Source: Ethanoligenens harbinense YUAN-3 (GTDB taxonomy: Bacteria; Bacillota; Clostridia; Oscillospirales; Ethanoligenentaceae). From it: a stretch of DNA of 64,000 nucleotides. The position numbers and the translations under genes are program-made. This document shows, piece by piece, positions 50,252 to 64,000 of this stretch. Every line of letters starts with the position of its first letter. Positions within the stretch are counted from its first letter, which is position 1. The stretch covers positions 891,501 through 955,500 of the forward strand of contig NC_014828.1 in assembly GCF_000178115.2 (NCBI RefSeq). Direction: 5' to 3'. The notes under the pieces are model-generated. The model saw only the letters and a program-made list of their open reading frames with translations, did no database searches and was not told the DNA's origin.

Positions 50252-50425
50252 AGTGAGTGTGCCAAAGGGGTAAGCCCCTTTGGAAACCCGATCGCCTTTT
50301 CAGTCAACGGCGCTTAAGCCTCGTGCCGCCATTCCGTTGCAATATGGCTTGAAACAGGCCGTTTCCCTATGGTACTATGAGTATTGAAATCCGCTAATGG
50401 ATTATTGGGGGAAGGAAACGGACTT

Positions 50426-52102
50426 ATGCAGACAGTCGTTACGGTGTTACTTGGCATATCAGTCATTCTGGGAATTCCTCTCATTATATATTCCAATAAA
50501 AGACGTTCCCAACCCGGTGCGGCCGATTTCATCTGGCTTGCCTTTACGATTATGATTGTCAACGGCGGGTATATCGGGGAAATCAATGCCGGCACGATGC
50601 AGGCTGCTCTTTTCTGGTCAGGTGTCGAACATCTGGCTCTGCCGCTCAACCCCTATTTTTGGCTGGCGATGTGCCTTGACTACACCCGTGCGAGGCATCG
50701 GAAAACCATCCAAAAAATACTGCTGTTTTTTCCGGTATTCTATTATTTCGTATTCTATACCAACGACAGGTTCCACTTGTATATCATAAAATACGATTTT
50801 GTCAGCAACGGCTATTTTTCCGTGCTCGTTTCCGAAAAGGGTCCTGCATTTCTGGTAATCATGCTGGTCATCACCGCTATCGGCATCACCTGTATGGCAC
50901 TCTATTTTCGGGGATACCTGCGGTCGGCGCGGATATACCGAACCAGCTATCTGTTGATGATTCTGGCCTCCGCGCTTCCCTGGGCGGCGGTCTATTTTAA
51001 TATCTATAACGCAACGTTTTTGCGCATTGATTATTATTCTCTGATGATGGTGGCCACCGCCGTTTTATACCTGTTGGGGCTATTCCGTTACAGCATCTTC
51101 AGCACCATGCCGATTGCGACGGAAACGGTTTACCGGCTTTCCGAAGACGCCATCGCGTTGATGGACGGAAACGGGCGCATCACAGATGTAAACGACGCCT
51201 TTCTGCGGCAATACCCGGAAATGAGCCGCTTGACCGCCAAAAGCACAGTAGATGCTTTTTGTGCGCACCATAATGAATTTCGCGGCCTGTCGCCGGAAAC
51301 TCCGGAACTGCATTTTCACCTGTCGTCCGGCGGCAGCACACGGTATTATTCCGCAAAGCTGACCGGCATCTTTTCCGAAAACGGTATCCATGCCGGCAAC
51401 ATCCTGCAAGTGAAGGATATTACCGTTTTTATGGAATACCAGAACCGGCTCCGGCAGTTGGCCGAGCAGGCCACGGAGCGGGCGGATACCAACGAGCTTT
51501 CTTTTTTGCAGGCGCAAATCAGTCCGCATTTCATTAACAATACGCTCGGTGCTATCTCCTCCCTGATTACGCGGGATGACGAAGCCGCGAAAAACCTGGT
51601 GGTGGATTTGAGCGAATACCTCATCCACTGTTACCGCATTGGAAATGCTTCGCCGATGGATTCGCTGAAACACGAGCTGGAGGCCGTGAACACCTATATC
51701 AAAATCATAAAGGTTCGTTTCGGCGGCAGAATCTGCTATGCCGAGCGGGTGGAGGTGCCGATGGACATGATACTGCCGCGTCTGGTGCTCCAGCCGCTGG
51801 TGGAAAACGCCGTGCGGCACGGTGTGCAGTCCAAAAAAGACGGCGGCACCGTCCGACTCAGCACCGTAGGAAAAGATGGTTACGCTTGCTTTGAAATCAG
51901 CGACGACGGCGTCGGAATCAAGCTGGAAAGAATTCAGAACTTGCTTTCCGGAAAAGACGATAAGCAGGGCGTTGGAATGATCAACATTCACAGGCGGCTG
52001 ATCAAATATTATGGCGAAGGCCTGCATATTCAAAGCGGAAACGGAACAGTGATCACTTTCCGCATCCCGCTTACCCAAACGGGAAAAAAGGCTTTCACAT
52101 GA
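50426..52102 (+). CDS. Orphan LytS-like sensor histidine kinase
   Basis: The 558-residue protein has about seven hydrophobic helices (1-225, 7TM-type sensor), a PAS-like region (about 235-345; EDAIALMDGNGRITDVNDAF), and a His_kinase domain with QAQISPHFINNTLGAISSLI. A HATPase domain follows (PLVENAVRHG, DDGVGI). ATG 50426 follows GGAAGGAAA. No response regulator is adjacent, and the gene ends just before the first giant secreted protein and its PhoB-like promoter. A link to that promoter is speculative, since LytS kinases usually pair with LytTR regulators. Confidence 0.92.
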   Translation: MQTVVTVLLGISVILGIPLIIYSNKRRSQPGAADFIWLAFTIMIVNGGYIGEINAGTMQAALFWSGVEHLALPLNPYFWLAMCLDYTRARHRKTIQKILLFFPVFYYFVFYTNDRFHLYIIKYDFVSNGYFSVLVSEKGPAFLVIMLVITAIGITCMALYFRGYLRSARIYRTSYLLMILASALPWAAVYFNIYNATFLRIDYYSLMMVATAVLYLLGLFRYSIFSTMPIATETVYRLSEDAIALMDGNGRITDVNDAFLRQYPEMSRLTAKSTVDAFCAHHNEFRGLSPETPELHFHLSSGGSTRYYSAKLTGIFSENGIHAGNILQVKDITVFMEYQNRLRQLAEQATERADTNELSFLQAQISPHFINNTLGAISSLITRDDEAAKNLVVDLSEYLIHCYRIGNASPMDSLKHELEAVNTYIKIIKVRFGGRICYAERVEVPMDMILPRLVLQPLVENAVRHGVQSKKDGGTVRLSTVGKDGYACFEISDDGVGIKLERIQNLLSGKDDKQGVGMINIHRRLIKYYGEGLHIQSGNGTVITFRIPLTQTGKKAFT

Positions 52103-52410: not shown

Positions 52411-55400
52411 ATGGCTAAATTCCAAAACAGGCTGTTAAAAGGAGGTACGGTGTTTCTCTCTGTAGCAATCATCATGTCTATGTCCACGTTTGCTTTATGG
52501 GCGAACGCGGATAGCGATACGCAGACCACGCTGGATATCAGCAAGGGTTCGATTTCGATTGGGGACGGTACGGTCAATGGTTACGACAGTGCGGGCGACC
52601 ATATTACAATTCCGAACCAGAAGGGATATATTCTGACGGGCTCTGCCATCGGTACCGCGGACGGCGTTACGATTGATGGTGCCTCGTGTAACATCACCTT
52701 AGACAACCTGACGATTTGTGTCACGGGTGATAATGCCTATGCCGACCGCGCCGGTGCCTTCAAAATTGAGAATGGCGCAAAGGTCAATCTGACCCTTGAG
52801 GGCGCAAATCTGCTGGATACCAGCAACAGCAACAGCGATTATGGCGGTATGGAAGTAGACGCGAACTCATCCGTTACCATCAACGGCACGGGAACGCTTA
52901 TGGCCAAAGGTGATTTTGATTGTCCGGGAATCGGCGGATCTGAAACAGGGACCAACGGCTTGATTCAGATTAACAGCGGTACGGTGACAACAGTCGCGTC
53001 CGGTGACGGCGTGACTGGATGCGGCGGCGGCTTTATGGGAAGCAATGTACCGGTCATAATCAACGGAGGCTCCGTCAACTCGTCGGTGGGCGGCGGCGTG
53101 CGGGACAGCAATGGGAATGCCGAGTATCTGGATACGATTAAGGTTACCGGCCCCAACGGCACCCCGCTTGCGAACACTCTGGTGCAGTATGCGGTTGACG
53201 GCGCGTCGCAATCCATTTCTGCGACAACCGATGCAAACGGGAAACTCTATTTATGGCTGACGCAGGGGCAACACAGCATTTCAATCGCCGACTGTGCCGG
53301 GCAGGTTCTTGCGTCTGTATCCGGCATGGTCGCAAATAACGGCAGCACCGCCATGACTGTGCAGATTGCCTCTAATGTAACAAGCTATGCTGTGCAGTGC
53401 GATGCATCCATGAAAAACGGTACGGTTGCGGTAGATAGAACATCGTATTATACAGGTCAGCCTGTGACGCTTACGGTGGAACCGTTCGACGGCTACCGGC
53501 TGACGACCGGTTCGCTCCAGTGTACCGCGGCGGACGGCAGCAGCGTTCCCTTGACGGAATCCAACGATACATACACTTTTGCTATGCCCGCTTCAAATGT
53601 AACTGTATCCGCCGAATTCGAAGCATTGCCGCTTCATACGGTCTCGTTTGACGCAAATATGCAGGACGGCACACTTACCGCAGACCTACAGACGGCACGA
53701 GCAGGTACGACTGTGACGGTTACGCCGAAACCGGCTGACGGCTATTTTTACGTCGCCGGCACGCTTTCTTACACATACGGTGGTAAGAGCTATCCGATTT
53801 CGTCCGGCAGTTTTATCATGCCGGATGCGGATGTCACGCTTTCGGCGCAATTTGAAAAAAATCTGACAGTGGATACGCAGGGTGGTAGTGTTTCTACAGA
53901 CGCTTCCGGGGGAAAAACCATTGCGTCAAGTGGCAGCTACAGCATCAGCGGGAACGGTGTGACGGGAGGGATCACCGTCGCGGCAAATCTGGGTACGGTC
54001 AACATCACGCTTGATTATTTGAATATCGACATGTCTAATGTAGCCGGCGGCTCACCTTTCACAATCGGGAGAGGTACAACGGTCAATCTGACCGTTGAAG
54101 GCACCAATGTGCTAATAGGCGGTCAAAACATGGCGGGCGTAGCCGTACCGGACGGGGCTGCTCTCGTGATTGACCAAACCAGCACCGGCACGCTCAACGC
54201 AAACGGAAATGGCACTGCCGCAGGTATCGGCGGAAACAGCAACTCGGGAGCCGGCAGCATTACCATCAACGGCGGCACAGTCAATGCTTCTTCCAATGGT
54301 GATGGAGCCGGCATCGGCGGCGGGCGTCTGGGAGGCTGCGGCACAATCACCATCAACGGCGGCAATGTGACCGCACAGGGCGGGGCTTATGGCGAACTGG
54401 AATCAACTGGTGGAGTTTACGGTTCCGTTTATGCCGGGGGGACTGGTATCGGCGGTGGAGCGTGGGGAAACGGTGGACAGATTTCTATTAACGGCGGCCA
54501 TGTCAAAGCCGCTTCTTCCCCCAATTTCGGCGTGTCAATCGGCAACGGTTATGGCGGCAGCGGTGTCACGGTTGCAATTCAGGGCGGAACGGTTCAAACA
54601 GGGTCGGCGACATGGGCCAGTGTCATTGATGCCGCGAGTTGTGTTTTGAACGGCGGGTCCATTTATGTCGGTAAAGCAACGGAGGCCGCGCAATTTAGCG
54701 CCAACCCCGTCAATGCCGGAAACTCCAAAGTGTATCTCGACACAGTGATGGTATGTAATGCAAACGGAAGTGCTCTGAAAAACACCGATGTCACTTATTC
54801 GGTGGACGGCAGTTCTGATGTGGTCGCGTCTACCGATGCTCACGGAATGCTTTACCTTTGGTTGTCTAACGATGATCACATTGTTTCAGTGCACAGTGGT
54901 GATGAGGGAGGCAGCGACGAAACCTTTGTGGACAAAAGCGACAGCACGACAGACAGCATTACACTGGTTGCTGATGATTTTACAGTGACGGTTGCAGACA
55001 CCGCGCACGGCGCGGTTACGGCGAGCAAAACGGTCGCGACGGGCGGAGATACGGTAAAGCTTACGGTCACGCCCGACAACGGCTATTTTCTCAAATCGCT
55101 CACGTACAACGACGGTACGGATCACGACATTTCGGAGAACGCGGACGGCAGTTATTCGTTCACCATGCCTGAAGATGATGTGACGATCAGCGCGCAGTTT
55201 GAACAGGCACCATGTATTGTAACCGTCAGTTCAGCCAATGCGAATGAGGGCACGGTTGCGGTCAGCGGGGCGTCTTCCATAGGAAACGGGGCCTATCTGG
55301 TCAATGGCGGATCGTCGTTTGTCCTATCTGCGATTTCCAAACAGGGTTATACGTTTTCGGGCTGGTATGATGGTAACACAAAAGTGAGCGATGCCCCGAC

Positions 55401-56475
55401 GTTTGCGGTCACACCGTCGGCAGGCGCATGTTATAATGCGGTTTTTACCGCGATTCCAAGTGAAAGTCTGACAGTGGACATCACAGGTTTTGGTTCGGTG
55501 AGCGCAAACGGCGTGTCTGTCGGAAGCGGAGTGGCTCAATCGTTCACGCTCGGCAGTTCCGCCACGCTGACGGAGACACCGGCCGACGGTTACCAGTTTC
55601 TGTACTGGCAGGATACAACAAGTGGGAAAATCCTTTCGCAGTCGGCTTCCTATACGTTCACGATGGACAGCGATATGTATATGACGGCCGTTTTTGAACA
55701 AACGAAGACGGCTACACACATGGTGACCTTTGTGAACGGCATTACGGGAGAAACCATCAAAAGCGTTACGGTTGACAATTCGGTAACGGATATCAGCTCT
55801 TACGAACCCGCCGACCCGTACGCATTCGGCTGCACCTTCAAAGATTGGAAAGAAACCAAAGAAGCGGACGGCAGCATCGTCGAAACGGCGGAGTTTACAC
55901 CGGCGTCTTTAACCGATTCACTGACTGTAACCGGCGGCACCCAGAGCGGAAGCGGCAGCTACGCGCCCAAAAGCGTCGTGACTGTCACCGCGGATGCGGC
56001 GCCTTCCGGTAAGCAGTTCTCATGCTGGCAGGACGCAAGCGGAAATATTTTGAGCTACGGCGCAATATACAGTTTTTGCATTACGGGCGATCTGTCGGTC
56101 ACAGCCGTTTATGTGGACAGCACTTCAACGGTGGAACCCGAGGCGGATACTACTCTGACGGGCGTAACGCCGAATCCCTCGGCGGCAACCATCTCGTTTT
56201 CCTCGCAGTGGTATGTTCCCGGCGGCTGCACCATGGTTTCCCATGGCATTCTGGTGACGAAAGGCGCAAACCATACGGCGGATACGTTTGTCATCGGTGC
56301 GGAAAGCGTATTAAAGGCAACAGCAAAAAACAATCCGTCCGCCGGCACCTATGTGGTGAACAAGTGCAATGTCACAAAGGGAGACCTGTGGTACGGACGA
56401 GCGTATCTTGTGTATCGGGATGCTTTCGGAAATATCGTGACCATTTACGGCAACATTCTGTCAGGGTCATTTTAG
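52411..56475 (+). CDS. Giant secreted beta-helix carbohydrate-binding/InlB-repeat protein 1
   Basis: The 1354-residue protein has a Sec signal peptide (hydrophobic core LSVAIIMSMSTFALWANA). Two copies of a module follow. Each has a right-handed beta-helix-like, DUF4353/Cthe_2159-type carbohydrate-binding region rich in ITINGGTVNAS and GAGIGGG turns (about 30-230 and 490-770), then an Ig-like linker (YLDTIKVTGPNGTPLANTLV), then InlB-type repeats ending TFAMPASNVTVSAEFE. The last roughly 310 residues are nearly identical to protein 2. There is no LPXTG, SLH or dockerin motif, so how it stays with the cell is unclear. ATG 52411 follows GAGGAAG. Adhesion to polysaccharide is likely. Confidence 0.88.
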   Translation: MAKFQNRLLKGGTVFLSVAIIMSMSTFALWANADSDTQTTLDISKGSISIGDGTVNGYDSAGDHITIPNQKGYILTGSAIGTADGVTIDGASCNITLDNLTICVTGDNAYADRAGAFKIENGAKVNLTLEGANLLDTSNSNSDYGGMEVDANSSVTINGTGTLMAKGDFDCPGIGGSETGTNGLIQINSGTVTTVASGDGVTGCGGGFMGSNVPVIINGGSVNSSVGGGVRDSNGNAEYLDTIKVTGPNGTPLANTLVQYAVDGASQSISATTDANGKLYLWLTQGQHSISIADCAGQVLASVSGMVANNGSTAMTVQIASNVTSYAVQCDASMKNGTVAVDRTSYYTGQPVTLTVEPFDGYRLTTGSLQCTAADGSSVPLTESNDTYTFAMPASNVTVSAEFEALPLHTVSFDANMQDGTLTADLQTARAGTTVTVTPKPADGYFYVAGTLSYTYGGKSYPISSGSFIMPDADVTLSAQFEKNLTVDTQGGSVSTDASGGKTIASSGSYSISGNGVTGGITVAANLGTVNITLDYLNIDMSNVAGGSPFTIGRGTTVNLTVEGTNVLIGGQNMAGVAVPDGAALVIDQTSTGTLNANGNGTAAGIGGNSNSGAGSITINGGTVNASSNGDGAGIGGGRLGGCGTITINGGNVTAQGGAYGELESTGGVYGSVYAGGTGIGGGAWGNGGQISINGGHVKAASSPNFGVSIGNGYGGSGVTVAIQGGTVQTGSATWASVIDAASCVLNGGSIYVGKATEAAQFSANPVNAGNSKVYLDTVMVCNANGSALKNTDVTYSVDGSSDVVASTDAHGMLYLWLSNDDHIVSVHSGDEGGSDETFVDKSDSTTDSITLVADDFTVTVADTAHGAVTASKTVATGGDTVKLTVTPDNGYFLKSLTYNDGTDHDISENADGSYSFTMPEDDVTISAQFEQAPCIVTVSSANANEGTVAVSGASSIGNGAYLVNGGSSFVLSAISKQGYTFSGWYDGNTKVSDAPTFAVTPSAGACYNAVFTAIPSESLTVDITGFGSVSANGVSVGSGVAQSFTLGSSATLTETPADGYQFLYWQDTTSGKILSQSASYTFTMDSDMYMTAVFEQTKTATHMVTFVNGITGETIKSVTVDNSVTDISSYEPADPYAFGCTFKDWKETKEADGSIVETAEFTPASLTDSLTVTGGTQSGSGSYAPKSVVTVTADAAPSGKQFSCWQDASGNILSYGAIYSFCITGDLSVTAVYVDSTSTVEPEADTTLTGVTPNPSAATISFSSQWYVPGGCTMVSHGILVTKGANHTADTFVIGAESVLKATAKNNPSAGTYVVNKCNVTKGDLWYGRAYLVYRDAFGNIVTIYGNILSGSF
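55546..56474 (+). repeat. 929-bp direct repeat, copy 1 (3' end of secreted protein 1)
   Basis: It matches 59047-59975 at a constant offset of 3501 bp. I counted about seven base differences by eye, nearly all in the second half. Confidence 0.93.
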
Positions 56476-56533
56476 AGGGATAGGCCGGAAAAGAGCGGTG
56501 TGGCTTCATACGGTATTTTTGCAATATTTATTC

Positions 56534-56733: not shown

Positions 56734-59700
56734 ATGTTCAAAAGAAAAAGGACGTCAAAAAAATGCCTGATGTCTATATTGGCTTCCGCAGTGGCGGTCA
56801 CTATGTTGCCGGGGGTGCTTTTACCAGTTTGGGCGGAGGAAAGTGGGAAAACAACGCTCGATATTAGCCAGGAAAGCATCGTTATAAGCGGCAATGCTAT
56901 TACCGGCAAAGACAGCAGCGGCCATGACATCACGCAGGTCAACTCAAACGGGTATGTCATTACCGGCAAATCGATGTCAAACACGGTCACCGTGAAAAAC
57001 GGAACCACGGATATCACGCTCAGCAATGCGGATATTGAGGCAAGCGGGGGCTCTGCATTCTCCATTCAGGGGGGAGCAACGGTGGATTTGGAACTCAGCG
57101 GAGCAAACACCCTGACAGGCGGAAATGATTGCGCCGGTTTGGAAGTGCCGGAAAGCACTTCCCTTACGATTGATTCCCTGAGTGGGGACAACTGCACTGA
57201 TACGCTGAATGCCACCTCAACGGGAGATGGCGCCGGAATCGGCGGAAACAGCGGCGCCGATTGCGGAACCATCACCATCAACAGAGGCTCGGTCAACGCA
57301 ACCTCGACGCAAGACGGCGCCGGAATCGGCAACGGCTGTCAAGCCGATGGGGATACCCGCGGCATGGTCACTGTTAACGGTGGCTCGGTTACAGCGCTTA
57401 CCAAAGGCTACGGCGCCGGCATCGGCGACGGAAATGGCGGACACGGAATCAACGTCGCCATCAACGGCGGCACAATCGATGCCGAGTCTCGCACTGGCTC
57501 CGGAATCGGAGAGGGCGCTTATTGCTTCAGCAGTACATTTGCCATCAAAATCGCCGGCGGAACCATCGTTGCGAAAGGCGAAACGTCCGGGTCCGGAGAA
57601 GGGGTTGGTATCGGTAGTATGTACGATACCAACTCTATGAGCATTATTATGGCCGGCGGCTCGGTAAGCGCGTCTCCCTCTTTCGCACAGTTTAATCCAA
57701 AGCCCACCAATGGGTTCGCACGTCTTGACCTTTTTACGGTCGTGCTACCCAAAGCCGCCACCGTGACAAGCGTCGATGTCGAACAGAATGATAAGCAGGT
57801 TTCCTACAATGGCGCTGGTATGAAAACCGACGCACAAAACGAATTGTACTTATACCTGCCCGAGGACGACAACGGCGTCACCAAGGTGACACTGCAAACG
57901 TCCGACGGGAATACTTATGTCAGATGTTCCCCTCCGTTTATCATTGCGGATATTCCGGAGCAAACCTATACCGGAAGTGAAATCAAGCCGGCGGTTACTG
58001 TAGAGGATATCCTTACCGGCAACGTCCTAAAGGAAGGAACCGATTACAAGCTGGTCTATAACGACAGCCTGCCGACGGATTCGGAAGGTTACGACGATTA
58101 TACAAGCGGCGGGGAACATAATTTTCAGGTGGTCGGATTAAATCAGTATCTTGGTGAAACGCAGGAGGTATCATTCAATATTACCTGTCCCGTCACCATT
58201 ACCGGCATCAGCCCCGACAGCGGCCCGGATTACGGTGGCACGAAGGTCACCATCACGGGGTCCCATTTTGCCGGCGCCACAGAAGTTTCATTCGATTACA
58301 ACGACTGCGGCAGTTTTACGGTAGTGAATGATTCAACCATCATTGCCTGTGCACCAGAATGGAACAGCGCCATGAACGATGGTGACGTCTATATCGAGGT
58401 GAATACCCCGGCCGGTTTCTGCGAGTCGGATGCAACATTCCACTACCAAAAGACCGTTCAAAAAGTCACGTTAACCGGCGGCTCGGCCATCGCGCAAGGC
58501 AATTCGGAACAGATGACCGCCACGGTGCTGTGGGGAAATAACACCAGTGAGGATATTACGGATCGGACTTCTACGACATGGAGCAGCAGCGATACCGGCG
58601 TTGCAACGGTAGACGCTGACGGTAACGTTTCGGCCGTCAGCCCCGGTACGGCAACCATCACGGCTTCCTATGAGGGTATCAGCGCAAGTCTCACAGTAAC
58701 GGTGCAGAGCAGCCACAACATTACAATCTTGAACGCATTGGCAGAAAACGGCTCGGTTCTGTTATCCGGTCAAAAACTCACCTCGTGCAATTTTAAGGAG
58801 GCCGACGGCTCCACGGTTGTGTTGACCGCCGTTCCGCAAAGCGGCTATACGCTGACCGGATGGTATGACGAGAACGGAAATTTGGTAAGCAGCAACCCGA
58901 CGTTTGTCTTTACGCCGACCGCCGATGTTACCTATTGCGTGGGATTTGTACGAATTCCTTCGGTCACGCTTACGGCAAATGTCAGTGGAAACGGAAGCGT
59001 CAGCATAGGCAGTGCAACCCCGTCCGCTACAGCAACCCAATCATTTACGCTCGGCAGTCCCGCCACGCTGACGGAGACACCGGCCGACGGTTACCAGTTT
59101 CTGTACTGGCAGGATACAACAAGTGGGAAAATCCTTTCGCAGTCGGCTTCCTATACGTTCACGATGGACAGCGATATGTATATGACGGCCGTTTTTGAAC
59201 AAACGAAGACGGCTACACACATGGTGACCTTTGTGAACGGCATTACGGGAGAAACCATCAAAAGCGTTACGGTTGACAATTCGGTAACGGATATCAGCTC
59301 TTACGAACCCGCCGACCCGTACGCATTCGGCTGCACCTTCAAAGATTGGAAAGAAACCAAAGAAGCGGACGGCAGCATCGTCGAAACGGCGGAGTTTACA
59401 CCGGCGTCTTTAACCGATTCACTGACTGTAACCGGCGGCACCCAGAGCGGAAGCGGCAGCTACGCGTCCAAAAGCGTCGTGACTGTCACCGCGGATGCGG
59501 CGCCTTCCGGTAAGCAGTTCTCATGCTGGCAGGACGCAAGCGGAAATATTTTGAGCTACGGCGCAATATACAGTTTTTGCATTACGGGCGATCTGTCGGT
59601 CACAGCCGTTTATGTGGACAGCACTTCAACGGTGGAACCCGAGGCGGATACTACTCTGACGGGCGTAACGCCGAATCCCTCGGCGGCAACCATCTCGTTT

Positions 59701-59976
59701 TCCTCGCAGTGGTATGTTCCCGGCGGCTGCACCGTGGTTTCCCATGGTATTCTGGTGACGAAAGGCGCAAACCATACGGCGGATACGTTTGTCATCGGTG
59801 CGGACAGCGTATTAAAGGCAACAGCAAAAAACAATCCGTCCGCCGGTACCTATGTGGTGAACAAGTGCAATGTTACAAAGGGAGACCTGTGGTACGGACG
59901 AGCGTATCTTGTGTATCGGGATGCTTTCGGAAATATCGTGACCATTTACGGCAACATTCTGTCAGGGTCATTTTAA
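56734..59976 (+). CDS. Giant secreted beta-helix carbohydrate-binding/InlB-repeat protein 2
   Basis: The 1080-residue protein has a signal peptide cut near LLPVWA. One beta-helix carbohydrate-binding region follows (about 40-330; repeated GDGAGIGGNSG and TINRGSVNATS turns). Next come a linker region, an IPT/TIG domain (VTITGISPDSGPDYGGTKVT), a Big_2 domain (WSSSDTGVATVDADGNVSAV), an InlB-type repeat (GYTLTGWYDENGNLVSSNPT), and the C-terminal domain shared with protein 1. It lacks a visible wall anchor. ATG 56734 has GGGAGGG upstream. Its stop overlaps the ribosome binding site of the 32-codon peptide gene, so the two are co-transcribed. Confidence 0.88.
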   Translation: MFKRKRTSKKCLMSILASAVAVTMLPGVLLPVWAEESGKTTLDISQESIVISGNAITGKDSSGHDITQVNSNGYVITGKSMSNTVTVKNGTTDITLSNADIEASGGSAFSIQGGATVDLELSGANTLTGGNDCAGLEVPESTSLTIDSLSGDNCTDTLNATSTGDGAGIGGNSGADCGTITINRGSVNATSTQDGAGIGNGCQADGDTRGMVTVNGGSVTALTKGYGAGIGDGNGGHGINVAINGGTIDAESRTGSGIGEGAYCFSSTFAIKIAGGTIVAKGETSGSGEGVGIGSMYDTNSMSIIMAGGSVSASPSFAQFNPKPTNGFARLDLFTVVLPKAATVTSVDVEQNDKQVSYNGAGMKTDAQNELYLYLPEDDNGVTKVTLQTSDGNTYVRCSPPFIIADIPEQTYTGSEIKPAVTVEDILTGNVLKEGTDYKLVYNDSLPTDSEGYDDYTSGGEHNFQVVGLNQYLGETQEVSFNITCPVTITGISPDSGPDYGGTKVTITGSHFAGATEVSFDYNDCGSFTVVNDSTIIACAPEWNSAMNDGDVYIEVNTPAGFCESDATFHYQKTVQKVTLTGGSAIAQGNSEQMTATVLWGNNTSEDITDRTSTTWSSSDTGVATVDADGNVSAVSPGTATITASYEGISASLTVTVQSSHNITILNALAENGSVLLSGQKLTSCNFKEADGSTVVLTAVPQSGYTLTGWYDENGNLVSSNPTFVFTPTADVTYCVGFVRIPSVTLTANVSGNGSVSIGSATPSATATQSFTLGSPATLTETPADGYQFLYWQDTTSGKILSQSASYTFTMDSDMYMTAVFEQTKTATHMVTFVNGITGETIKSVTVDNSVTDISSYEPADPYAFGCTFKDWKETKEADGSIVETAEFTPASLTDSLTVTGGTQSGSGSYASKSVVTVTADAAPSGKQFSCWQDASGNILSYGAIYSFCITGDLSVTAVYVDSTSTVEPEADTTLTGVTPNPSAATISFSSQWYVPGGCTVVSHGILVTKGANHTADTFVIGADSVLKATAKNNPSAGTYVVNKCNVTKGDLWYGRAYLVYRDAFGNIVTIYGNILSGSF
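59047..59975 (+). repeat. 929-bp direct repeat, copy 2 (3' end of secreted protein 2)
   Basis: Nearly identical to 55546-56474. The repeat stops at the end of the coding region; sequences after the stop codons differ. Confidence 0.93.
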
Positions 59977-59989
59977 GGAGGTGAGCCGA

Positions 59990-60088
59990 ATGAAGAGGCA
60001 CTACGAAACGCCGGAAATCGAAATTCAAGAGTTTGTCGTAGAAGATATCTGCACCACAAGTGCACCATACGAAGAGGGAAATATTTAA
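59990..60088 (+). CDS. 32-residue peptide, candidate RiPP precursor
   Basis: ATG 59990 follows a near-perfect AAGGAGGTGAG (59975-59985) that overlaps the stop of the giant gene. The peptide begins MKRHYETPEIEIQEFVVEDI and ends CTTSAPYEEGNI. The first 20 residues look like a conserved leader (YETPEIEIQEF), and the last 12, with Cys-Thr-Thr-Ser, like a modifiable core. Small Clostridial peptides with a YxxPExEIxEFxxEDVxxTS pattern occur next to kinase/PqqD clusters (recollection, not a search). A terminator follows, then the kinase, PqqD-like, peptidase and ABC genes. Co-translation with the secreted protein is unusual. It could instead be a small accessory protein. Confidence 0.68.
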   Translation: MKRHYETPEIEIQEFVVEDICTTSAPYEEGNI

Positions 60089-60143
60089 TTGATTCCGCGC
60101 AGATGTTTTCCTACACTTGTCTGTTTATACCGGATTATCCGGG

Positions 60144-60170
60144 AAAAGACGCCTTTCGGGGCGTTTTTTC
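60144..60170 (+). terminator. Terminator after the peptide gene
   Basis: An ACGCC/GGCGT stem preceded by AAAAG and followed by TTTTTTC. It leaves the giant gene and peptide as one transcript, separate from the cassette downstream. Confidence 0.78.
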
Positions 60171-60490: not shown

Positions 60491-60543
60491 CAAAAATACA
60501 AGAACATATTCCGCTCTGATTTTTATAAGAGGGAGCGATGCCG

Positions 60544-61269
60544 ATGGCCAGCTATCAAATTGCAGATCTAAAAGTAGATGTTTCGGGTCAAAACACCATT
60601 TTGGAACGGCAGGGCAGCGCCTATCAGGCGAAGTGGTGCGGGCAGCCTGATATCCGTATTGTTGTGGGGGAAAGCGTTTCGGAAAAGGCACGTCTGTATC
60701 CAACTATGACACCAGATGAGCAAGGATATTTTTTGAGCGGCGGGCAATTTTACACGCAGCTTCCCGATTTCGACGGCTTTGTACTGCATGCGTCCGCAGT
60801 TGAAGTGGATGGTTCGGCCTATCTTTTTTCAGCGGGGAGCGGTACCGGAAAATCAACTCACACGATGCTTTGGCAAAGCTGCCTGGGATCGGACCGTGTT
60901 CGAGTGATTAACGACGACAAACCGGCCATTCGGTTAATAAATGGTATCTTTTACTGCTATGGAACACCGTGGAGTGGTAAAAGTGGCCTTAGCCGCAATG
61001 TCCGTGTTCCACTGGGAGGTATCGTTTTTCTCGTACAGTCGCCTCAAAATCATATTGCTGGCCTGAACGGGACCAAGGCACTGAAGCTGTTGTTACAAAA
61101 CACGATCCGGCCAAGAGATCTTAATCGTCTGGAAACACTGCTTATGCTGTTTAACGGGCTGATGGTATCCATTCCCGTTTATGAGTTGCACTGCACCCAA
61201 GAACCCCACGCAGCCTTGCTTTGCTGTCAAACGATTTTGCACGCCAAACAGAAAGGAATGTTACGGTGA
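60544..61269 (+). CDS. HPr-kinase-like (SynAP-type) peptide kinase
   Basis: The 241-residue protein has the HPr kinase C-terminal fold: the P-loop SAGSGTGKSTHT (residues 96-107), preceded by LHASAVEVDG, and RVINDDKPAI as the metal/catalytic segment. Such truncated HPrK homologues occur in lasso-peptide clusters, where one phosphorylates the precursor's terminal Ser (paeninodin). Here the Thr/Ser of the 32-residue peptide are possible targets. ATG 60544 has GAGGGAG eight bases upstream; ATG 60538 is too close. The stop overlaps the next start (GTGA). Confidence 0.88.
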   Translation: MASYQIADLKVDVSGQNTILERQGSAYQAKWCGQPDIRIVVGESVSEKARLYPTMTPDEQGYFLSGGQFYTQLPDFDGFVLHASAVEVDGSAYLFSAGSGTGKSTHTMLWQSCLGSDRVRVINDDKPAIRLINGIFYCYGTPWSGKSGLSRNVRVPLGGIVFLVQSPQNHIAGLNGTKALKLLLQNTIRPRDLNRLETLLMLFNGLMVSIPVYELHCTQEPHAALLCCQTILHAKQKGMLR

Positions 61270-61529
61270 AGCTTTCAGATGAATTTATTCTTCGAGAAGT
61301 AGCAGGCACGTATATCGTCATGCCGTATGGTGAAAAATCGGTTGATTTTAATTCCATGATTACATTAAATGAAACCGGTGCATTTATATGGAAGAAATTA
61401 GAGCAAAACCTGCCCAGAAGCGAACTTGTTTTGGCTCTGGTGAGCGAATATGAGGTTACGGAAGAACAAGCCTCTGAAGATGTCTGCCGTTTTTTTTCCA
61501 AACTGAAAGATGCCCACATGTTGGATTAA
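61266..61529 (+). CDS. PqqD-like peptide-recognition protein
   Basis: The 87-residue protein starts at GTG 61266, overlapping the kinase stop, with AAGGAA upstream. KLSDEFILREVAGTYIVMPY and FNSMITLNETGAFIWKKLEQ are typical of PqqD (RRE) domains, which bind precursor leader peptides and present them to modifying enzymes. It is the strongest sign that a ribosomal peptide is being processed here. Confidence 0.93.
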   Translation: MKLSDEFILREVAGTYIVMPYGEKSVDFNSMITLNETGAFIWKKLEQNLPRSELVLALVSEYEVTEEQASEDVCRFFSKLKDAHMLD

Positions 61530-61534
61530 AAAAT

Positions 61535-61981
61535 ATGGATAAAAAAACAGTTTATACATCGCTCGACAATCTGTCGCCGATCTTCCTCACTATGCTATCG
61601 AAAAAAGTTGATATTTTGTTAGGTATCACCGGAACGAGTATGCTGCCAATGCTGAAACCGGGACGGGATCAGGTAGAACTGACAAACTGCCGCCAATGGA
61701 AGTTTGGAATTGGGGATATTCCGCTTTACCGCCGAACAAACGGGCAGTATGTGCTACACCGAATTGTCCGTATGGATCGCAGCGGATATGATCTCTGTGG
61801 GGATCATCAGATTCGTGTTGAAAAGGAGGTTCCCCGTGGGAACATGCTGGCCGTGGTAAAACGCTTCCGTCGGAAAGGAAAGTGGCATAGCTGCGGCGAA
61901 TCCGGTTATCAGGTTTATTGGCACCTGTGGATATTTCTGTCTTCGTTTCGGAGACTTGTTTACAGGGCCTGTAGAAGGTGA
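61535..61981 (+). CDS. S24/S26-family peptidase with Ser/His dyad
   Basis: The 148-residue protein has the signal-peptidase-like motif GTSMLPMLKPG (Ser35) and YVLHRIV, where His75 replaces the usual Lys general base, as in SipW/ER-type enzymes. A C-terminal hydrophobic stretch (WHLWIFLSSFRRLVY) may touch the membrane. In this cassette it is the best candidate for leader removal, taking the place of the B2 protease of lasso clusters. Its stop overlaps a GTG upstream of the ABC gene. Confidence 0.88.
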   Translation: MDKKTVYTSLDNLSPIFLTMLSKKVDILLGITGTSMLPMLKPGRDQVELTNCRQWKFGIGDIPLYRRTNGQYVLHRIVRMDRSGYDLCGDHQIRVEKEVPRGNMLAVVKRFRRKGKWHSCGESGYQVYWHLWIFLSSFRRLVYRACRR

Positions 61982-61989
61982 TCGAACCG

Positions 61990-63744
61990 ATGAAAAGAAA
62001 AAAGAAGGGCGCTTTTCGCTGGATATTTCGATATTCCAGAAAGCAGATGCTGCGAATCGTTCTGATCGCCTTGGTCGGCATCGTGTCGGCGTTGTCCTGT
62101 ATTGTCTTGGCCGTTTTTTCGCGGAAAGTAATCGATATTGCAACAGGCAGGCTGAAAGGCAGCGTTTTCGTTTATTGCATCCTGCTACTCGTTGTCATCG
62201 GCGTACAGGCGGTACTGAATATTCTGGAAAGTAACCTGACCGTCAGGGCCGGTTGCAAAATAGAAATCGATATGAAGCAGGGCGTCTTCGGTGCAATTTT
62301 GAAAAAGCAGACGTCGCAGACCGCCTCCTATCATTCGGGGGATTTTTTGAACCGATTGACCAGCGACGTAGAGGTAGTCGTAGGCGGATGCGTAGTTTCG
62401 TTGCCCCAAAGCTTATCTCTGGCGGTAAAATTGGTCGTAGGGTTCGTCGTGCTTCTGCTGATGAATGCGAAATTCACCTGTTTTCTTGCCATTGTCGGCG
62501 CAGTGGCGTTCCTGTTCAGTTTCGTGTTGCGCAACCGCTATAAAAAACTGCACCGGGAGATTCAGCAGAAGGATGGAAAAGCGCGGTCATTCATGCAGGA
62601 ATGCTTGGAGAATATTTCCATCATCAAATCCTTTGTAAAGGAGAAAACCATCCTTGCCAACCTTTTGAGACTGCAAAATGACACCTACCAAGTCAGGCTA
62701 AAACGGAATGCAGCTGCCAATATCGCTAATACAGGCGCTCTGACCCTTTTTTCCGGTGGGTATTATCTGGCACTCGTTTTCGGTGCACTGCAAATTGCCG
62801 ATGGAAAAATTTCCTATGGGATGCTAACGGAATTTCTGTTAGTTTTCAATCAGGTCATCGACCCGTTCAAGAGCATGTCAGGGATATTGTTACAATTCTT
62901 TTCCGTGACTGCGTCGGCGGAACGCCTGATGGAAATCGAAAATCTATGTGACGAACCGGAACCAAAAAGCAAGCAGGCCGATGCTGAAAAACTATATCGG
63001 GAAATGAACTGTATTCGAATTGACCGGATCAGCTTTCAGTACGGGACAGAGCAGGTGTTTAAAAACGCTTCCGGCGTGATCAAAAAAAACACGCTGACTG
63101 CCATCGTCGGTTGTTCGGGAGTAGGAAAAAGTACGCTGCTGAAGCTAATGCTTGGTCTGGTCGAAGCGGATAGTGGTGAAATTCGTATTGAAATGGCGGA
63201 CAAAAACCGTAGAATTAATACCGAGACTCGCCGCCTTTTTTCCTATGTGCCGCAGGGAAATATGATCCTGTCGGGAACCATTAAAGAAAACATTACCTTC
63301 TTTCGCGATGGTATCGAGGAAAAGACGCTTCGGGCTGCCTGCTGGGCTGCCTGCGTTTCTGATTTTACGAACAACCTTTCGGAAGGTCTTAATACCGTGA
63401 TCGGAGAGCGCGGCATGGGCCTTTCAGAGGGGCAGAATCAGCGAATCGCCGTTGCGCGCGCTCTATTGTCCGATTCTCCGGTTTTGCTTTTTGATGAAGC
63501 TACTTCGGCGCTGGACAATGAAACGGAGAAGAAACTTTTACGCAATCTGAAAACGTTTAAAAACAAAACTTGCATTTTCGTTTCGCACAGGAATTCGACG
63601 GTAGAGGACTGTGATGCCGTCCTGAGAATTGAAAATGGAAAGATTCGGGAGGAAATCTGGAATGGACAGGAATGGATTATGTTTTCTGCAGTTGCTGGCA
63701 ACATTTCTAAACAATACGCTTCCCGTGACTCCGAGAGACGTTGA
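61990..63744 (+). CDS. Exporter-type ABC transporter (fused permease-ATPase)
   Basis: The 584-residue half-transporter has six TM helices (about 20-310) and a C-terminal ATPase: Walker A VGCSGVGKST, signature LSEGQNQR, Walker B VLLFDEATSALD and H loop VSHRNS. There is no C39 peptidase domain, so the separate S24/S26 enzyme would handle cleavage. It should work as a homodimer to export the mature peptide. ATG 61990 follows GAAGGTG. The next gene starts inside its 3' end. Confidence 0.94.
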   Translation: MKRKKKGAFRWIFRYSRKQMLRIVLIALVGIVSALSCIVLAVFSRKVIDIATGRLKGSVFVYCILLLVVIGVQAVLNILESNLTVRAGCKIEIDMKQGVFGAILKKQTSQTASYHSGDFLNRLTSDVEVVVGGCVVSLPQSLSLAVKLVVGFVVLLLMNAKFTCFLAIVGAVAFLFSFVLRNRYKKLHREIQQKDGKARSFMQECLENISIIKSFVKEKTILANLLRLQNDTYQVRLKRNAAANIANTGALTLFSGGYYLALVFGALQIADGKISYGMLTEFLLVFNQVIDPFKSMSGILLQFFSVTASAERLMEIENLCDEPEPKSKQADAEKLYREMNCIRIDRISFQYGTEQVFKNASGVIKKNTLTAIVGCSGVGKSTLLKLMLGLVEADSGEIRIEMADKNRRINTETRRLFSYVPQGNMILSGTIKENITFFRDGIEEKTLRAACWAACVSDFTNNLSEGLNTVIGERGMGLSEGQNQRIAVARALLSDSPVLLFDEATSALDNETEKKLLRNLKTFKNKTCIFVSHRNSTVEDCDAVLRIENGKIREEIWNGQEWIMFSAVAGNISKQYASRDSERR

Positions 63745-64000
63745 CTGGAATCAGGTGTACGAGCTTTCTAAGATTCATTCTTTAAGTGGCGCTGTCTACA
63801 CTGCCGTCAGGAAACTTCCCGTCGCGCAAAGACCACCGAGAGAAACGTTCAATCGGTTTGCGTCGGCATTTTACGCCACTGTTTTGCGCGCGGAAAAGCA
63901 GAGTGCACTCATTGAAAATATATTGGAAAAGCTTAACGAAAAGAAAATTCCGCATCTTCTTATAAAAGGTGCTGTTTTACGAGCGTTTTATCCTGTTCCA
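63662..64000 (+). CDS. Nucleotidyltransferase-family protein (NTP_transf_5-like), C-terminus beyond window
   Basis: ATG 63662, with GGGAGGA eight bases upstream, opens a frame that overlaps the ABC gene by 83 bases and runs off the right edge; 113 residues are visible. PVTPRDVDWNQVYELSKIHS and IPHLLIKGAVLRAFYPVP match the N-terminal part of NTP_transf_5 proteins found in lasso-peptide and related clusters. The catalytic Asp pair would lie past base 64000. In such clusters this protein may nucleotidylate or otherwise modify the peptide, an inference from context. Confidence 0.85.
   Translation, partial: MDRNGLCFLQLLATFLNNTLPVTPRDVDWNQVYELSKIHSLSGAVYTAVRKLPVAQRPPRETFNRFASAFYATVLRAEKQSALIENILEKLNEKKIPHLLIKGAVLRAFYPVP

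Follow-up and report, generated by a model that had tools for sequence, protein, structure and literature searches.

The question raised by this locus is why a gene of only 32 codons should lie directly behind the gene for a very large secreted protein and ahead of a set of genes that resemble a peptide modification cassette. The window, by which we mean the whole 64,000-nucleotide stretch of Ethanoligenens harbinense YUAN-3 DNA that was analysed, comes from a closed genome of 3.0 Mb in which the peptide gene and the gene for an HPr-kinase-like (HPrK) protein each occur once. We believe that the ORF at 59990-60088 probably encodes a RiPP precursor of the linear polyphosphorylated peptide (LPP) type, which would be processed in trans and would act together with the co-encoded secreted protein. 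The parts of such a system, namely the leader, the RRE, the kinase fold, the peptidase triad, the exporter, the NTP_transf_5 protein and the gene order, are evident from sequence and homology. The peptide gene and its immediate surroundings comprise the following features.

52411-56475, forward strand: second secreted protein, with a near-identical C-terminal region and without a peptide gene behind it
56734-59976, forward strand: 1080-aa secreted repeat protein, partner of the peptide (ORF; Pfam)
59599-59973, forward strand: C-terminal domain of the 1080-aa protein, common to other peptide-preceding proteins
59976-59981, forward strand: Shine-Dalgarno sequence AGGAGG, sharing one base with the stop codon of the secreted-protein gene (sequence)
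59990-60088, forward strand: precursor peptide MKRHYETPEIEIQEFVVEDICTTSAPYEEGNI, 32 aa (ORF call, family comparison)
About 60143-60170, forward strand: Rho-independent terminator-like hairpin with a T run, closing the secreted protein-peptide unit

The strong ribosome binding site that the sequence-only reading had ascribed to this small gene is indeed present, with AGGAGG placed 8 nt before the ATG and the start codon itself 13 nt beyond the TAA of the gene for the secreted protein. The product has a leader that includes YETPEIE, a Thr-Thr-Ser at the putative leader/core border and a core of approximately APYEEGNI, and searches of Pfam, NCBIfam and PHROGs returned zero matches to it. Between the peptide gene and the cassette, the segment 60128-60176 folds into a hairpin with a predicted energy of -23.1 kcal/mol (z -4.9). 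Because this terminator is strong, the peptide is probably not cotranscribed with the HPrK-PqqD-S26-ABC genes; rather, the peptide and the secreted protein probably share one transcript, and the cassette from 60538 onwards probably forms a separate unit.

Used as a query by itself, the peptide recovered similar short ORFs from 21 of 98 order genomes, and in these relatives a tail that varies follows the common leader MKK-x-Y-x-x-P-E-I-E-I-x-x-F-x-x-E-D-V-I-T-x-S. The anticipated combination of a conserved leader with a variable core was found across 83 distinct peptides of 29-119 aa (median 42). Asp, Gly, Ser, Glu and Asn are abundant in their tails, and a Trp stands near the end in 43 of the 83. 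In the leader of the family, the Pro and Asp are nearly invariant and the Tyr/Phe position is at least 70% conserved. A site resembling a ribosome binding site precedes 71 of 81 relatives, compared with 13.5% of background ATGs. The ORF is conserved in relatives at the amino-acid level, and among 43 pairs of similar leaders there are 283 silent codon differences against 225 that change the residue, an excess that is indicative only, given that the pairs were picked for similarity and form a biased sample. These comparisons, made at the level of sequence, confirm that the 32-codon ORF is real and not a product of chance. In loci L074, L095 and L102, two unlike leader-bearing peptides stand in tandem after one secreted gene, one with a tail resembling ...VPWSDFFQ and the other ending in DGWY.

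The genes that follow the terminator had been proposed to be what a RiPP pathway needs, and this proposal has gained in precision, as they match both the set and the order of genes known from LPP clusters.

60538-61269, forward strand: HPrK-like protein (LppK-like) with the P-loop GTGKSTH (weak NCBIfam match; structure model)
61266-61529, forward strand: PqqD-like discrete RRE (LppB-like) with a GTG start (PF05402, 1.9e-17)
61535-61981, forward strand: S26 archaeal-type signal peptidase-like leader peptidase (LppS-like; TIGR02228, E 2.6e-4)
61990-63744, forward strand: MsbA-like ABC exporter (LppD-like; PF00664, PF00005; TIGR02204)
63662-64000, forward strand: NTP_transf_5 nucleotidyltransferase (LppN-like; PF14907, 1.4e-51), running past the window (L003:3662-4861)

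The identity of the HPrK-like protein was decided by its structure model (pLDDT 93), for which the best PDB matches in Foldseek were HprK/P proteins with 1kkm at the top, whereas a PDB search by sequence gave no true match. In the peptidase, the triad S35/H75/D90 is invariant in 50 of 50 relatives and corresponds to S29, H68 and D93 of LppS. A HisKA_7TM sensor kinase just upstream (window 50384-52102) and a response regulator just downstream (L003:5245-6354) may form a flanking two-component system. On the 3' side of the cassette, the region L003:9264-15367 contains transposase-like genes (an IS21-like pair and an IS66-like set) and RHS-type fragments, all recognised by eye, and looks mobile.

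LPPs were described from Bacilli by Popov et al. in May 2026, with the gene order A-K-B-S-D-N (PMC13381572). There, LppB binds a YxxP leader through contacts made by N33, D70 and F74, LppK polyphosphorylates Ser3 of the core and acts on Ser, not Thr, at its site, and LppS cleaves off the leader with the aid of LppB (PMC13381572). Each cluster encodes one to three precursors of 35-200 aa with the leader consensus YxxPxVLxHQxIxFETxxS and the RRE-binding motif YxxPx[V/L/I], and what LPPs do biologically is not known (PMC13381572). The locus under study, taken from the window together with L003, has the same six parts in the same order, and each of the conserved core genes (SpI-like peptidase, discrete RRE, HprK-like kinase, NTP transferase and MsbA-like transporter) is present. 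Further points of agreement are the small precursor with its conserved N-terminus and variable C-terminus, the YETPEI that conforms to the RRE-binding motif, the Tyr pocket of the RRE, a leader peptidase of the archaeal signal-peptidase type with a Ser/His/Asp triad, and the lack of any recognised lasso cyclase nearby. In the window RRE, N35, D72 and F76 align with the Tyr-pocket residues of LppB, and over 55 relatives these positions hold Asn in 54, Asp in 44 and Phe in 46. As the paeninodin RRE PbaB1 has Gly and Gln at the positions of the Asn and Asp, this match with LppB marks the RRE, on the evidence of its pocket residues, as one of the Tyr-reading type, and the leader peptide does contain a Tyr.

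The Clostridial system nonetheless departs from the described one in several respects. Its leader follows YxxPEIEIxxFxxEDxxTxS, without the HQ or the FET of the full consensus, and its Tyr-to-Thr spacing is two residues longer. The hosts are Clostridia instead of Bacilli, the precursor gene lies behind a gene for a secreted protein, a terminator separates A from K in the window, and no capsule locus was seen beside the window cassette. Up to 25 precursors are spread over a Clostridial genome, where an LPP cluster has its one to three. By sequence, PbaB1 (E 3e-5) is also a better match to the window RRE than LppB is (E 0.57), and with the RRE of L034 neither match is clear. Because the HQ and FET elements and the spacing differ, and because the window RRE stands nearer to PbaB1 than to LppB, we would class the Clostridial form as a variant, not a plain member, of an already known pathway type. 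No description of the Clostridial arrangement, with its secreted-protein pairing and many-to-one organization, was found in the open-licence papers searched, and the LPP paper does not use the word 'Clostridia' in its main text (PMC13381572).

Pairing a precursor with a surface protein had at first been regarded as unusual; it has proven to be the rule. The gene upstream of the peptide encodes a predicted secreted and soluble protein in 49 of 57 cases (86%), compared with 111 of 530 control genes (21%; odds ratio 23), where secretion was called by a home-made hydrophobicity rule, the 57 genes had an intact 5' end and belonged to peptides taken from the peptide search or from near cassettes without regard to the upstream gene, and the controls were other genes of the same loci. 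The median distance from the upstream gene to the peptide is 20.5 nt. In the window, the partner had been described as a secreted beta-helix protein that binds polysaccharide. Its secretion holds, since a signal peptide is present, but the beta-helix is reduced to weak Pfam repeat matches and the polysaccharide binding finds no support, with Pfam reporting TIG, Big_2 and InlB-type B repeats.

The C-terminal domain of this partner is modelled as a seven-stranded Ig/FnIII-like sandwich (pLDDT 83), for which Foldseek returned generic Ig/FnIII-like folds and nothing else, and PDB sequence searches with it were empty. As a universal feature of partner proteins this domain was rejected, since an iterative HMM finds it in 22 of 58 upstream proteins; the remaining partners have C-terminal domains of other kinds. 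The host genome has two copies, both within the 64-kb window, the other belonging to the secreted protein at 52411-56475. Over their final 942 bp (55537-56478 and 59038-59978), the two genes are 98.9% identical, with homology stopping near the stop codons, and this near-identity suggests a recent duplication or gene conversion.

Similar peptides also occur beside other copies of the cassette, among them those in L034, L035, L039, L045, L057, L058, L060, L063, L064, L070, L074, L081, L088, L090 and others. The full order of secreted protein(s), peptide, HPrK, PqqD, S26, ABC and NTP transferase recurs in unrelated Clostridia, namely in L034, which came from the order search, and in L057 (Desulfotomaculaceae), L058, L060 (Herbivorax) and L070 (Acetivibrio alkalicellulosi), which were reached via HPrK relatives. 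In those five loci a secreted SLH-repeat protein (Pfam-confirmed in L057), or one obviously similar, lies between the peptide and the kinase; the window lacks an SLH-type protein at this place. It is from gene order, which is very regular, that a functional link between the peptide and the secreted protein is proposed.

Peptide and kinase genes occur in the same genomes to a striking degree. Among 295 genomes of the order, 75 have both the peptide and HPrK, 9 only the peptide, 11 only HPrK and 200 neither, such that HPrK is found in 75 of 84 peptide genomes (odds ratio about 150); in a class sample of 292 genomes, scored for full-length HPrK, the corresponding numbers are 41, 11, 5 and 235. 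Both samples hold related genomes, and Fisher p-values would overstate the independence of these counts. In the class sample, 13 genomes have between 5 and 25 peptide genes, and at least one full-length HPrK is present in each of them. As many as 25 scattered peptide genes accompany one or two kinase cassettes. The genome with 25 peptide matches (G490) has two HPrK loci. For 17 of its peptide genes the sequence on the upstream side is visible, and the preceding gene lies at a distance of -8 to +30 nt; where the 5' end of that preceding gene can be seen, inspection reveals a signal peptide at the start in 14 of 14. The G490 cassette is split in two, with HPrK-PqqD-ABC lying beside SLH-like genes in L222 and with L226 carrying HPrK-S26-NTP. 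In G228, which has ten peptide genes, HPrK was not found, an absence that is uncertain in a genome that is 81% complete. Some class genomes, G323, G352, G400 and G461 among them, encode a further HPrK-like subfamily, about 300 aa long, that matches only model residues ~70-240; it occurs mostly in genomes without the peptide and is perhaps the kinase of another RiPP or lasso pathway. Given the co-occurrence and the presence of up to 25 peptides for one or two cassettes, a single cassette probably works in trans for a whole family of pairs, each made up of a surface protein and its peptide.

Exosortase/PEP-CTERM-like and sortase-like systems likewise use one maturation cassette for many scattered surface-protein genes. 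Unlike those systems, the one described here would operate on a separate peptide instead of the protein's own C-terminal tail, and it has no transpeptidase.

Several cassettes are further accompanied by a gene for an SLH protein, a lipoprotein or a single-TM protein with a low-complexity linker, which ends just before HPrK. In L035 (10454-11593, peptide strand), a wall-anchored SLH-like protein and the peptide both end in EGDNGTGWG. In L090 (9044-9929, peptide strand), DNDIADPWG, with which the peptide ends, recurs unaltered in a wall-anchored SLH protein, 37 residues before the C-terminus of that protein. A TM-anchored protein encoded in the same L090 region has the related tail motifs EDPWADI and GWSGIY. 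Over 11 cassettes, matches between core and tail within the same locus exceed those in permuted pairings (p ~0.001-0.003). We rejected resemblance between core and anchor tail as a general rule, as the excess rests on the two exact 9-residue matches and is not significant when L035 and L090 are left out (p 0.16).

Alternative explanations differ in how much of the system they would set aside. The most radical, that the ORF arose by chance or serves purely in translational coupling with an irrelevant product, takes its appeal from the extreme shortness of the ORF and its place just behind a stop codon. We give this idea hardly any credence, in view of a leader kept across the class, the excess of silent substitutions among similar leaders, the ribosome binding sites of the relatives and the near-complete co-occurrence with the kinase. 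A lasso peptide locus resembling paeninodin is very improbable as well, even though paeninodin clusters likewise combine a YxxP leader, a discrete RRE, an HPrK and an NTP transferase (PMC13381572) and sequence places the window RRE closest to PbaB1. Gln79 of PbaB1 lies near the Trp of its leader (PMC13381572), whereas the window has Tyr in the leader, Asn and Asp in the RRE pocket, and an S26 leader peptidase where a lasso locus would be expected to show a B2 peptidase and a macrolactam cyclase. The sole PF13471 (B2 peptidase) match in the whole genome is borderline and lies ~716 kb from the peptide, with none in the cluster, and inspection by eye of L003 on the 3' side of the cassette revealed no ORF resembling an asparagine-synthetase-like cyclase.

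The remaining alternatives accept an LPP-type precursor and differ over what the mature peptide does. It could be an ordinary diffusible product, such as a signal, a metallophore or an antimicrobial, that is co-regulated with the secreted protein through a common promoter and is not physically linked to it. Every biosynthetic part matches LPP, and the partners are diverse, with one recognisable C-terminal domain common to only 22 of 58; yet the high rate of partner secretion argues against this proposal, and a separate precursor for each surface protein, in up to 25 pairs per one or two kinases, would then be needless. We regard such a product as rather unlikely. Alternatively, the modified core may join the C-terminal domain of the partner to a component of the envelope, with the SLH, lipoprotein or TM anchors that bear the same tail serving as alternative or competing partners. 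Surface display of this kind draws on the exact cores in the SLH proteins of L035 and L090, on the permutation result, and on an Ig-like C-terminal domain that, as modelled, is plausible as a binding module. Weighing on the other side are the loss of significance without those two cases, a C-terminal domain that is not universal, and a window that has neither an anchor gene beside the cassette nor, anywhere in its genome, a second EEGNI-stop like the tail of its own peptide. We consider display possible but on the doubtful side.

For the LPP-type precursor that acts with its co-encoded protein, the reading that we prefer, the following sequence of events can be envisioned. The precursor would be made from the same mRNA as the secreted repeat protein, and one cassette would serve many scattered pairs in trans. 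The RRE would hold the leader while the kinase phosphorylates, and perhaps polyphosphorylates, a Ser or Thr at the TTS border, by analogy with LPP chemistry (PMC13381572). The S26 peptidase would then take off the leader, the ABC transporter would export the core, and the NTP transferase may attach a further group. The most likely purpose of the modified core would be to work outside the cell with the secreted protein encoded beside it; the core might, for instance, bind the C-terminal domain of its partner or link that partner to an envelope polymer. A bolder extension, which we offer tentatively as something short of likely, is that the LPP-like cassette performs maturation genome-wide, such that secreted surface proteins, up to about 25 in a genome, would each have their own phosphopeptide, needed for anchoring, assembly or regulation at the cell surface, with the anchors of identical tail providing the docking sites.

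The pairing seen in Clostridia, with one cassette for many peptides, suggests a concrete role for LPPs that can be tested, namely that of a peptide partner of surface proteins. The Clostridial precursors also greatly widen the range of the LPP family. Furthermore, they provide a simple rule for genome mining, which is to look for short ORFs with a YxxP leader behind genes for secreted proteins in HPrK-positive genomes, and application of this rule would give access to a large set of RiPP precursors, so far unannotated, from bacteria of the gut and rumen.
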